Shown: positions 29,135 to 32,638 of the stretch, in pieces
Layout: the number at the start of each line of letters is the position of its first letter
How positions within the stretch are numbered: the first letter of the stretch is position 1
Virus record (IMG/VR): IMGVR_UViG_3300049783_001463
Location: 1-32,898 of that record
Reading direction: 5' to 3' (one strand)
DNA: 32,898 nucleotides
Source of the DNA: a virus
Notes under the pieces: model-generated
Database searches by the model: none
Told to the model about the DNA's origin: nothing
Seen by the model: only the letters and a program-made list of their open reading frames with translations
Position numbers and translations under genes: made by a program

Positions 29135-30901
29135 ATGGATACTCAAGACAATATTCGGGCGATGTTTAGCGCCGCCGAGGACATCGACCCCCGCGCCGCC
29201 GATGCCCCGCGGCCGCCCCCCGAGGCGCCGGTCGAGGAGGGGCCGACAACGATAGAGCGGTGCGCGCTTCTGCCCTTGAATGACTACGGCAACGGGTGCC
29301 GATTTATTGAGCATTTCGGCGAGGATATTATTTTCGCCCCTCGCGTCGGGTATTTCCGGTGGACTGGCAAGGTGTGGCGCCAAGATGAGGACAAGCTACT
29401 CGTTCGATCTTTGGCCCACAAAGTCGCCGATTGTATCCTTGAGGAGGTGCAAGCCTTGGCGCTTGAGCCTTGGGAAATCGACGCGATAGGCGCGCAAGGG
29501 TCCGCAAAGGTCGAGCTTGCCGCCTTGACTAATAAAGAGGATTTGACGGGCGCCGAACGGCTTCGGATAAAGGCCCTCCGCGAGACTGTCGAGTTAGGAG
29601 ACGCGGCGCGCAAGGCCCTCGGCACTCGCAAGCGCGCGCATCGCCAGCACGCAAAAATGGCCGGAAATACCGCCTCAATCAATAACATGCTGACCGAGGG
29701 CCAGGTGCAAGTTGCGGTCCCGCTTGAGGATATGAACACCGACCCGCTCGCGATCAATACCGAGTCCGGGGTGATCTATTTCAGAAAAGAGGCTTGCCCG
29801 GTAGAGGCCGCGCGCGACCGTCATGTCGAGGTGTGGGGGCATGTTCTTGAGCCTCACAAGCGCGAAAATCGTATCTCGAAAATGATGCCGGTGGACATCG
29901 ACCCCGCCGCGACCTGTCCCGAGTTTCTCAAGTTTCTAACTCAGATTATGCCCTCGGAGGAAATGCGCGATTTTATCCAACGGTGGTTTGGCTATACGCT
30001 CACCGGCCTGACGACCGAGCAGAAACTCGCGTTTTTTCACGGCGGCGGGCGCAATGGAAAATCGACCCTTGTCGATGTTATCGCGCGGATAATGGCGGAT
30101 TATGCAACAACGGTGCCGATTGAAAGTCTTACCGGCGCGGATCAAAGAAAAGGGTCGGACGCCACCCCCGATCTTGTCCGGTTGCCAGGCGCGCGCATGG
30201 TTCGCGCCTCCGAGCCTGAGCAAGGCCAGCGGATGAAAGAGGCTATAATCAAGGCGCTTACCGGCGGCGAGCCGATCTTGATAAGACGGATGCAACAGGA
30301 ATTTGTTGAGATCACCCCCGAGTTTAAGCTCACAATCTCGGGCAATCACAAGCCGGACATTCGCGGCTCTGATGATGGTATTTGGCGGCGCGTTCTTTTG
30401 GTTCCCTTCGAGGTTCAAATCCCCGAGGCGGATGTCGACATGTTTTTATCTGGTAAGCTCTGGGCAGAGCGCGCGGGGATTATGAATTGGCTACTTGACG
30501 GCGCCCTTTCTTATCTGTCGAGCGGATTGCGCGCGCCGGGGAGCGTTATTGACGCGACAAAGGTTTACCGCGAGGAAAGCGACCCCTTGCGCTTTTTCCT
30601 GCAAACCGAGTGCGACATCACCGGCGCCTCCGAGGATTTTATCAAAGCGCGCGACCTGATAGCGGGCTTTCAATACTGGCAAGCCGAGGCGGGAAATGAT
30701 CCTTATGGCAAGCGCCATGTGTCGACGCAATTAAGGCAAAGGGCAGGCACTCACAAAGACCCCGAGACCGGCGCGACGTTCTCGCCGCTCAAGCGGTCCG
30801 ATACCGGATATGTTGGGATTAAGTTCAAGCCTTCTTTCGAGGTCTCTTATGCTCTGCACCGCTCGGGCTTGAATAGAGGGGAGGGCGGCGATTATGCTTA
30901 A
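29135..30901 (+). CDS. Superfamily 3 replicative helicase (P4/D5-like)
   Basis: This encodes 588 residues. Domains in order: an N-terminal acidic Pro-rich tail; a D5-N region (residues 45-290) with ANMLTEG-like MLTEGQVQVAV and DPLAINTESGVIYF; then the SF3 ATPase. Walker A is HGGGRNGKSTL (Lys309), Walker B is VRASEPEQG (Glu360), motif C is LTISGNHKP (Asn404), and an Arg finger is likely in GIWRRVLLVPF (Arg418/419). A C-terminal D5-type winged helix follows. It unwinds the phage origin, possibly the repeats at 425-750. The end overlaps the next gene by 8 bp. Confidence 0.95.
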   Translation: MDTQDNIRAMFSAAEDIDPRAADAPRPPPEAPVEEGPTTIERCALLPLNDYGNGCRFIEHFGEDIIFAPRVGYFRWTGKVWRQDEDKLLVRSLAHKVADCILEEVQALALEPWEIDAIGAQGSAKVELAALTNKEDLTGAERLRIKALRETVELGDAARKALGTRKRAHRQHAKMAGNTASINNMLTEGQVQVAVPLEDMNTDPLAINTESGVIYFRKEACPVEAARDRHVEVWGHVLEPHKRENRISKMMPVDIDPAATCPEFLKFLTQIMPSEEMRDFIQRWFGYTLTGLTTEQKLAFFHGGGRNGKSTLVDVIARIMADYATTVPIESLTGADQRKGSDATPDLVRLPGARMVRASEPEQGQRMKEAIIKALTGGEPILIRRMQQEFVEITPEFKLTISGNHKPDIRGSDDGIWRRVLLVPFEVQIPEADVDMFLSGKLWAERAGIMNWLLDGALSYLSSGLRAPGSVIDATKVYREESDPLRFFLQTECDITGASEDFIKARDLIAGFQYWQAEAGNDPYGKRHVSTQLRQRAGTHKDPETGATFSPLKRSDTGYVGIKFKPSFEVSYALHRSGLNRGEGGDYA

Positions 30902-31412
30902 TCCTGCCCCCGCCGCCTTGCCCCCTAAAATCGGGCGCCCTGGCATCCCGGTCACGATCCGGGGGGTATTTTATGAAAACATGAAGCTCGCCGCCGAGGC
31001 CCTCGGGGTCGGCGAGGAAACGGTCCGCACGGCGCGCAAGCGCGGCGCGCGCTCTTTGCAAGGTGTGGGCTTGCGCGGGCGCTTTGTGCCGATCACGGTC
31101 GACGGGGTGGTCTATGAAAGCCGGGCGGATGCGGCGCGCGCGACCGGCTTGTCTTATGGCGCCTTGCGCTCCTTTGATGCGCGCCCCGATCTTGTGGCGC
31201 TTGTTGCGGCGGTGGTGGGTCGACATCCGGTCGCGCCTCCGCCGGGCGATCCTGAGACCGATTGCGCCGAATGTTGCGAAATGATCCTCGCGGCGATACG
31301 CGGCGCGGCGCGCCGGGGCCACTCGCCCGAGGCGATAGCGCGCTCTGTCGAGGCTCTGGCGCGAGCGGGCGCTTTGCGCGGCGCGGCGGGTTCTTTGGGG
31401 GGTCTGCTATGA
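30894..31412 (+). CDS. DNA-binding protein with NUMOD1-like repeats
   Basis: This encodes 172 residues; ATG 30894 overlaps the helicase stop. Two copies of a 'vdGv.Yes...AA.a.Gls...vr' unit are visible: VTIRGVFYENMKLAAEALGV (from about residue 20) and ITVDGVVYESRADAARATGL (from about residue 67). This is the helix-turn-helix typical of homing endonuclease tails, but no nuclease domain is present. The C-terminal part holds TDCAECCEMI (three Cys) and an Ala-rich helix. It could be a sequence-specific regulator or a remnant of a homing enzyme. It overlaps the methyltransferase start by ATGA. Confidence 0.65.
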   Translation: MLNPAPAALPPKIGRPGIPVTIRGVFYENMKLAAEALGVGEETVRTARKRGARSLQGVGLRGRFVPITVDGVVYESRADAARATGLSYGALRSFDARPDLVALVAAVVGRHPVAPPPGDPETDCAECCEMILAAIRGAARRGHSPEAIARSVEALARAGALRGAAGSLGGLL

Positions 31413-32638
31413 GCCGTCAAATTATCGGCGCGACTTTTTGCTCTGGCATCGGCGCGCCCGAAATGGCAACGCAAGCGCCCGACGGCACCTCTTGGGTTGA
31501 TTGGCGTTTGGCGTCTGAAATTGAGCCTTTCCCCCGCGCGGTTCTTTGTGATCGCTTCGGCTACAAGCTGCCCGAGGAGCACAATCAAGGGGAGGCCCTT
31601 TTGTGGGGGGATTTTACAGAAGTCACCCCGGATTTGCTGCGCCGGCGCGGCGTTCCCCTCCCCGATCTAATTGTCGCCGGAACCCCTTGTCAGGATTTTT
31701 CCCTCGCGGGCCTTCGGGCTGGCGTCTCTGGTGATCGTGGAAACCTAACCTTAAAATTTGTGGAGTTATGTCATGCAATTGTCGATGTTCGACCAGATAG
31801 AAAACTCGCCGTCTTGTGGGAAAACGTCCCCGGCGTCCTGTCCGATCCAAAAAACGCCTTCGGAAATTTCTTGGGCGGGCTTGTCGGGGCAAATTCTGCC
31901 CTGTGTAACCCAGGAAGGGACGGGTGGCCCTGTGAAGGTATGGTTGAGGGACCAAGGTCACGGGTCGCTTGGAGGGTTCTCGATGCTCAATACTTCGGCC
32001 TTCCCCAACGTCGGAAAAGAGTCTTTGTTGTTGTTGATTTTGGAGGGGCGGTCGATCCCGCAAAAATACTTTTTGAGCCAAAGGGCTTGCAAGGGGATTT
32101 TGCGCCGGGCCGAGAGGCGCGGCAAGACACTTCCCCGCGCGCTCGGCGTGGCGCTTCACATTGGAGCGGCGGACCTCACCCTACCCTAAGCCAATCAAAT
32201 AGTTCTGGGGGAATTGGTTCGAGTAATCAGGAAATCTTTAGTGGCGGCTCTGGGCTTGTCAATAATGCGCTCGATAGAGCGCCGAGTGAGTGGCCGGGGC
32301 GCATTGCCTCAACGCTTAACGCGGCCTTTGGCGATAAGCTCGGGCTTGATAATCAGCATATAAATTCGGGCGCTCCTTTATTCGTTTCTCAAGCGTGGGA
32401 TTTACGAGGCCGCGAGGATGGTGCGCAATTTGAGGGGCCGAGTTCCGTTTCGCGTATTAGGCGCTTAATGCCCTTGGAATGCGCGCGCTTGCAAGGGTTC
32501 CCCGACGATCACACCGCGATAGTTTACAAGGGGAAATCCGCCCCGGATGGTGTGAGATATAAAGCCTATGGCAACTCTATGGCGGTCCCTTGTGTCGGTT
32601 GGATACTCGACCGGATGCGCAAGGAGTTAGCTCCTTGA
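31409..32638 (+). CDS. DNA (cytosine-5) methyltransferase
   Basis: This encodes 409 residues; ATG 31409 overlaps the previous stop by ATGA. Motif I is ATFCSGIGAPEMA (SAM binding), motif IV is GTPCQDFSLAG with catalytic Cys94, motif VI is WENVPGVLS (Glu138), motif VIII is FGLPQRRKRVF, and the C-terminal motifs IX-X are RRLMPLECARLQGFPDD and YGNSMAVP. Between VIII and IX lies the variable target-recognition region. It methylates C5 of cytosine in an unknown target, likely for protection against host restriction. Residues 122-260 are also coded in a second frame that carries its own gene. Base composition from about 31740 to 32450 is more AT-rich than the rest. Confidence 0.95.
   Translation: MSRQIIGATFCSGIGAPEMATQAPDGTSWVDWRLASEIEPFPRAVLCDRFGYKLPEEHNQGEALLWGDFTEVTPDLLRRRGVPLPDLIVAGTPCQDFSLAGLRAGVSGDRGNLTLKFVELCHAIVDVRPDRKLAVLWENVPGVLSDPKNAFGNFLGGLVGANSALCNPGRDGWPCEGMVEGPRSRVAWRVLDAQYFGLPQRRKRVFVVVDFGGAVDPAKILFEPKGLQGDFAPGREARQDTSPRARRGASHWSGGPHPTLSQSNSSGGIGSSNQEIFSGGSGLVNNALDRAPSEWPGRIASTLNAAFGDKLGLDNQHINSGAPLFVSQAWDLRGREDGAQFEGPSSVSRIRRLMPLECARLQGFPDDHTAIVYKGKSAPDGVRYKAYGNSMAVPCVGWILDRMRKELAP
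31773..32189 (+). CDS. Overprinted gene inside the cytosine methyltransferase (+1 frame)
   Basis: This encodes 138 residues entirely within the methyltransferase gene. ATG 31773 has GGAG 7 bp upstream, as good as the neighbouring genes' sites. The start MQLSMFDQ and the C-terminal motif FLSQRACKGILRRAERRGK (residues 100-118) match a small phage protein that I recall as a stand-alone gene near DNA methyltransferases ('fLSa.AC.GILRRAekRGK.LP'). The methyltransferase frame over the same bases (LFEPKGLQGDFAPGREARQ) is also normal for its own family. Both frames therefore look selected. Function unknown. It may act with the methyltransferase. Recognition is by memory and should be tested. Confidence 0.68.
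   Translation: MQLSMFDQIENSPSCGKTSPASCPIQKTPSEISWAGLSGQILPCVTQEGTGGPVKVWLRDQGHGSLGGFSMLNTSAFPNVGKESLLLLILEGRSIPQKYFLSQRACKGILRRAERRGKTLPRALGVALHIGAADLTLP

Follow-up and report, generated by a model that had tools for sequence, protein, structure and literature searches.

A gene nested in the +1 frame of a phage C5-cytosine DNA methyltransferase gene encodes a candidate small subunit

Results

The methyltransferase gene and its nested frame

The window analyzed here, an entire IMG/VR virus record (32,898 bases), contains on its plus strand a gene (alpha, 31409-32638) for a C5-cytosine DNA methyltransferase (C5-MTase) of 409 aa, which matched Pfam PF00145 (E 4.9e-28) and TIGR00675 (2.6e-30). 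The catalytic motifs are all present in alpha: motif I (FCSGIG, 31436), motif IV (TPCQ, 31682), motif VI (ENV, 31820), motif VIII (QRRKRVF, 32006-32026), motif IX (RRLMPLECARLQGFP, 32459-32503) and motif X (YKAYGNSM, 32558-32581). A search for the DILE/KYxLS segment that follows motif VIII in canonical enzymes, using a hidden Markov model (HMM) of that segment, gave no match in the main frame of the window. An ORF at 30894-31412 runs over the start of the methyltransferase gene, its TGA (31410-31412) overlapping the ATG at 31409, and its product matched the I-TevI DNA-binding domain (Pfam PF20987, E 1.7e-6).

A second ORF of 138 aa (beta, 31773-32189) lies on the same strand in the +1 frame of alpha, and is proposed below, on the basis of comparative tests, to encode a small subunit. 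The frame is open from 31755, following an in-frame TAA at 31752, and its stop codon ends at 32189. The start codon ATG (31773-31775) is preceded at 7 nt by a Shine-Dalgarno (SD) sequence, GGAG (31762-31765). These coordinates agree with the initial annotation, which had also correctly placed the C-terminal nested motif FLSQRACKGILRRAERRGK (residues 100-118, 32070-32126) over main-frame LFEPKGLQGDFAPGREARQ (32069-32125). The ORF alone is unremarkable: an equally long stop-free +1 stretch was kept in 18% of synonymous shuffles of this GC-rich gene (P=0.18), so the single window sequence is weak evidence and proves nothing about the nested frame.

Conservation of the open frame among homologues

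Because hits from a search with the nested protein are biased, homologues were selected for their resemblance to the N-terminal part of the methyltransferase, a region not in the overlap, which gave 80 viral loci (set B; 65 non-redundant), and were compared with a null of synonymous codon shuffling that keeps the protein and its codon usage (100 shuffles). The nested frame was stop-free in 75 of the 80 loci, and the +2 frame in none of them. Among the non-redundant homologues, 62 of 65 were stop-free versus 1.9 expected (maximum 5), so that stop codons of the kind that would speak against dual coding are rare in related phages. Mean identity of the nested translations was 0.62 versus 0.29 after shuffling, a figure inflated by common ancestry, which does not affect the flank controls. 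Normalized codon homozygosity, as a measure of synonymous constraint, rose from 0.196 before the overlap to 0.585 within it and fell to 0.103 beyond it; in a sliding window it peaked at 0.87 over main-frame LFE...RRD..PR, the stretch homologous to LFEPKGLQGDFAPGREARQ. The excess constraint anticipated at synonymous sites is thus present and limited to the overlap.

Two further sets gave the same picture. The clade of the window (80 non-redundant members, selected by nested similarity) was stop-free in 80/80, with 0 stops versus 174 expected and a constraint of 0.178, 0.584 and 0.109 before, inside and after the overlap. An independently selected set of Streptococcus phages (set C) was stop-free in 37/39 versus 0.03 expected, with constraint values of 0.203, 0.572 and 0.124. 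Differences at 4-fold sites followed suit, at 0.613, 0.266 and 0.642 before, inside and after the overlap in set B and 0.582, 0.258 and 0.592 in the Streptococcus set. A broken nested frame next to an intact alpha was seen in a few relatives, with a late stop in L156 and an early one in L146 and L150.

Since the first positions of Leu and Arg codons in the main frame are third positions of nested codons, synonymous changes at these residues report on codon phase. In the gammaproteobacterial set B, third-position synonymous Leu/Arg changes fell from 0.516 to 0.298 in the overlap, and first-position changes stayed nearly constant (0.197 to 0.169), which is the pattern expected of a +1 coding overlap; the contrast was not clear in the Streptococcus set. 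An OLGenie-like count gave a nested dNN/dNS inside the overlap of 0.45 in set B and 0.40 in set C (0.40-0.51 in related sets) and of 0.79-1.02 in the flanks, except for 0.34 upstream in the Streptococcus set, where the flank is a short, highly conserved stretch.

Canonical phage C5-MTases served as a negative control. Their corresponding region contained 335 +1 stops versus 322 expected (56 non-redundant sequences), and synonymous constraint was about 0.02 throughout; this set is more diverged (mean nucleotide identity 0.52), which lowers constraint everywhere, and the stop count is independent of divergence. Canonical enzymes are therefore without +1 conservation, and C5-MTase sequence as such does not give rise to the nested gene. 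Chance is excluded as the cause of the open frame across homologues, and we regard it as nearly certain that 31773-32189 is genuinely dual-coding. Stops, constraint, codon phase and initiation signals all agree with the earlier proposal that dual coding persists at this locus, and in hundreds of phages a single stretch of DNA was found to encode, in its two frames, the two motifs seen there.

Conserved initiation signals

Among 80 relatives of the window clade, the nested ATG was kept in 78 versus 32.6 (maximum 42) in synonymous shuffles, the SD 4-mer in 56 versus 8.7 (maximum 16), and both together in 55 versus 3.3 (maximum 8). The main frame at the SD reads either GTG GAG (Val-Glu) or GTG AGG (Val-Arg), and the SD is preserved in both cases. 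In many gammaproteobacterial relatives a TAG stands in the nested frame two codons 5' of the nested ATG (TAG CCA ATG), which rules out a simple read-in of ribosomes from further 5' in this frame. The nested ORF thus has its own conserved translation signals.

Relationship of the nested protein to canonical enzymes

In canonical C5-MTases the main frame contains, directly after motif VIII, the segment LxDILExxVxEKYxLSxKLWxGxxRRK. Beta residues 88-116 (32034-32120) share with it the pattern LxDILExxVxxKYxLSxKxxxGxxRR, and an HMM made exclusively from canonical main-frame proteins scored 17.8 bits on the window nested protein (i-Evalue 1.4e-4 at Z=1000). Across two groups of nested proteins, the score was above zero in 86/86 and 9/9, with 65 and 8 of them at iE<0.01. 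Significance was reached by none of the 172 controls, which were shuffled or reversed sequences. Nor was the segment found in the main proteins: in three sets of 66, 82 and 80, the first being the relatives of alpha, none was significant and a single score exceeded zero. In the six frames of the whole window, the nested ORF was the only match. The converse search, with nested profiles against canonical proteins, placed the best match directly after motif VIII in 30/32 and 31/35 cases, and the PADLOC C5-MTase profile matched nested frames between motifs VIII and IX. In the sets sampled, the segment is found either in the main frame or in +1, a complementary distribution.

An AlphaFold2 model of the window nested protein, built with 86 sequences, showed a helical C-terminal domain (residues 82-133, 32016-32171) with helices at 82-91, 103-116 and 122-133. 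Its pLDDT was 95-97 per 10 residues for 101-130 and about 55 or below for residues 1-80, and the model suggests that the N-terminal half of beta is probably disordered. In a separate model of a canonical enzyme (L409, mean pLDDT 93), the segment folds as a short helix that is followed by a short turn at EKY and, after xLS, by a long helix; the two models agree in the order of these elements. A fold search with the nested model gave no significant match in the PDB, and the only conspicuous matches in a viral library were a phage cytosine methyltransferase and Mycobacterium phage Thibault gp104. No convincing match to nested proteins was obtained in Pfam or NCBIfam, and no PDB sequence match was found.

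Sequence comparison thus indicates that the C-terminal domain of beta is homologous to the segment opening the small (target-recognition) domain of canonical C5-MTases. The homology covers a short stretch of about 30 residues, and the rest of beta is without known relatives. Convergence keeps a small residual probability, given the puzzling occurrence of motif VIII and the segment in two frames of one DNA stretch.

Distribution and annotation of the nested gene

A tblastn search with the nested protein returned 135 phage records, including those of P1 (dmt), P7 and Vibrio, Mycobacterium and Ruminococcus phages; in the four records checked first and in eight viral contigs, the match was the +1 frame of a methyltransferase. 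Among 469 loci, 309 of 310 hits of the nested profile lay in the +1 frame of a C5-MTase; the -1 frame of the remaining one (L389), a fragment, contains no methyltransferase. Searches by tblastn against phages and plasmids, and scans of viral contigs and of 84,980 species genomes, yielded no free-standing homologue, and the stand-alone phage relatives suggested in the initial annotation were not borne out. This absence does not tell against dual coding here, because the stop-free frame and the excess synonymous constraint are both strongly present. Streptococcus phage MM1 orf14 and Mycobacterium phage Thibault gp104 were considered as free-standing genes and rejected, as each is the nested frame annotated as a gene; Vibrio phage 1.088 was likewise rejected, as it has a mere remnant in a truncated Dcm. 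In that phage (1.088.O; L259, 1431-2045) the methyltransferase is internally deleted, with motifs IV-VIII gone, and retains 55 codons of the nested frame as a remnant (RYYLSEKACAGILR).

One copy of the gene is already known under a fitting name: orf14 of the pneumococcal phage MM1, inside orf13, has been labeled 'C5 methyltransferase beta subunit', and its family is PHROG phrog_16143. Like window beta, it is a +1 ORF nested in a C5-MTase gene, and a profile-profile comparison of phrog_16143 with the window type gave E 7.7e-10 over 47 columns. Unlike window beta, MM1 orf14 starts earlier in the methyltransferase gene, has another N-terminal half and ends shortly after the YFLS motif. The window nested protein itself had no direct match to the phrog_16143 profile, which matched 9 of the 11 members of A1, several weakly.

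Phage P1 dmt contains the same nested family in its +1 frame, although alpha of P1, unlike that of the window, is fused to an adenine methyltransferase. A tree built from motifs I-VIII joined the window type and the P1 type in one clade (100/100) and did not place them firmly relative to the canonical and Streptococcus types. P1-type dmt, counted by its DNA, is present in 493 of 5,426 complete E. coli genomes, and in the E. coli records listed the methyltransferase is annotated alone, with the nested gene lacking any annotation. Standard prokaryotic annotation excludes long, fully nested same-strand genes, of which, to our knowledge, few are established. No paper describing the overlap was found in the open-licence literature searched. 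The nested gene has been overlooked by nearly all annotation.

Discussion

A gene with very strong comparative support thus recurs inside methyltransferase genes of phages of many hosts, including the textbook phage P1. The best explanation, which we consider probable, is a natural split C5-methyltransferase whose beta polypeptide is encoded inside alpha. The nested ORF would initiate at its own SD and ATG, and its product would be a small protein with an overprinted N-terminal half and a helical C-terminal domain. Alpha would contribute all catalytic motifs without the post-motif-VIII segment, and beta would dock on alpha and supply this segment in trans. Supplying the missing segment is the most likely role of beta, because alpha is without it while beta carries a homologue, and we hold it reasonably likely that beta is a subunit of this kind. 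We infer that beta is produced, associates with alpha, and is required for methylation or tunes it. The overlap may have originated in a canonical gene, through a deletion that shifted the frame between motif VIII and the segment.

In M.EcoHK31I, the small polypeptide (beta) is reportedly encoded in another frame inside the large one (alpha), an arrangement also seen in the window pair. Natural C5-MTases of two polypeptides include M.EcoHK31I and M.AquI, and enzymes of this class reassemble after being cut between motif VIII and the target-recognition domain (PMC3404938). The large subunit of M.EcoHK31I (YGGCCR; Lee, Kam and Shaw 1995) lacks only motif IX, which the small one carries (PMC3404938), and the window pair resembles it in that the small polypeptide carries an internal element absent from the large one. 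The element differs, however: M.EcoHK31I beta has motif IX, whereas window alpha keeps motifs IX and X, and window beta has the segment that lies between motif VIII and the target-recognition region. No motif IX was found in window beta; RRLMPLECARLQGFP at 32459-32503 belongs to alpha. The window pair falls outside the EcoHK31I type because its alpha has motif IX, and by analogy it may work like M.EcoHK31I as a variant with another element in beta. Relative to that enzyme, what appears to be new is that beta carries the segment after motif VIII and not motif IX. M.AquI (CYCGRG), whose small subunit contains the distal variable region and motifs IX-X (PMC3404938), is likewise split naturally after motif VIII; motifs IX and X of the window are in alpha, unlike those of M.AquI.

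The initial annotation had suggested a methyltransferase partner or an inhibitor, and the partner is the better supported of these roles. A regulator or inhibitor that mimics the small-domain segment and competes for docking, on its own alpha or on a host or competing C5-MTase, would show the same homology to the canonical segment, and fixed expression inside the alpha gene would couple its dose to that of the enzyme. However, the segment is absent from the main proteins that have a nested frame, as would be expected of a missing part more than of a competitor, and the known natural precedents are subunits (PMC3404938); we regard inhibition as rather unlikely. It is still less probable that beta has a function unrelated to methylation, such as DNA binding or anti-restriction, and resembles the segment by convergence. 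The N-terminal half is unlike anything known, the helices are basic and the PDB gave no significant sequence or fold match, which would suit such a function, but the segment HMM separates nested proteins from all decoys, the nested ORF is its sole match in the six frames of the window, and the nested gene was found only inside C5-MTase genes. Programmed frameshifting from alpha into the +1 frame, giving a single protein with an alternative C-terminus, would be compatible with overlapping frames in the same direction; it is made very improbable by the conservation of both ATG and SD far above the synonymous null and by the TAG two codons before the nested ATG in many gammaproteobacterial relatives. 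An artefact, in which the open +1 frame stems from a conserved main protein, GC-rich composition or a DNA/RNA-level signal, is compatible with the window sequence alone (P=0.18) but contradicted by the synonymous-shuffle nulls, flank controls, codon-phase test and canonical-MTase control, and has a negligible probability.

Simple overprinting of one family by the other, as first proposed, explains half of beta at best: it may account for the N-terminal half, but the C-terminal domain is a homologue of the segment in canonical C5-MTases. The split-enzyme reading also has a practical side: if the main gene of a cloned phage C5-MTase is recoded for expression, the second subunit would be lost unnoticed, and the enzyme could then look inactive.

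Other nested and interrupted genes

Another protein, phrog_1008 (329 aa, 'DNA methyltransferase'), is, like window beta, nested in the +1 frame of a phage C5-MTase gene and associated with strong synonymous constraint; unlike window beta, it has about 300 aa and spans nearly all of the alpha gene. Its loci (L269, L282-L361) belong to a C5-MTase subfamily with AYYNE...CHFFAG...GRLRAYGNAI. Synonymous constraint was 0.522 in the overlap versus 0.218 upstream, 4-fold-site differences were 0.180 versus 0.591, and nested dNN/dNS was 0.60 versus 0.99. The canonical-segment HMM gave no match to the post-motif-VIII segment in the phrog_1008 nested protein, and a motif IX seen by eye in the C-terminus of this type was rejected, its HMM score being near zero. 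We tentatively raise the possibility that dual coding is an ancient, stable state of a class of phage C5-MTases, in which the segment would be kept either in frame or in a +1 subunit, the two states would interchange, and phrog_1008 would be a second instance.

A very divergent C5-MTase of a jumbo phage, Caulobacter phage RBC11 (L263, 888-1970), contains an open +1 frame of 152 codons whose C-terminus can be aligned (ESIPAALYMSPSRRATLLDNATKAGRTL); the segment profile scored below significance there. In Omega-like mycobacteriophages, a gene for an HNH endonuclease splits the dual-coded methyltransferase gene and interrupts both frames, as in phage Thibault (L264, 320-2121) and phage Schatzie (L177, 348-1871); a submitter has remarked on unresolved intron boundaries there. 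In the E. coli P1-type plasmid p1606e (NZ_CP083706; L261, 3-2504), the PCQ motif of Dmt contains an intein (GGTP / C...HN / CQAF) that matched Hint_2 and LAGLIDADG_3, and in several E. coli P1-type records dmt is about 1 kb longer, probably through the same intein insertion.
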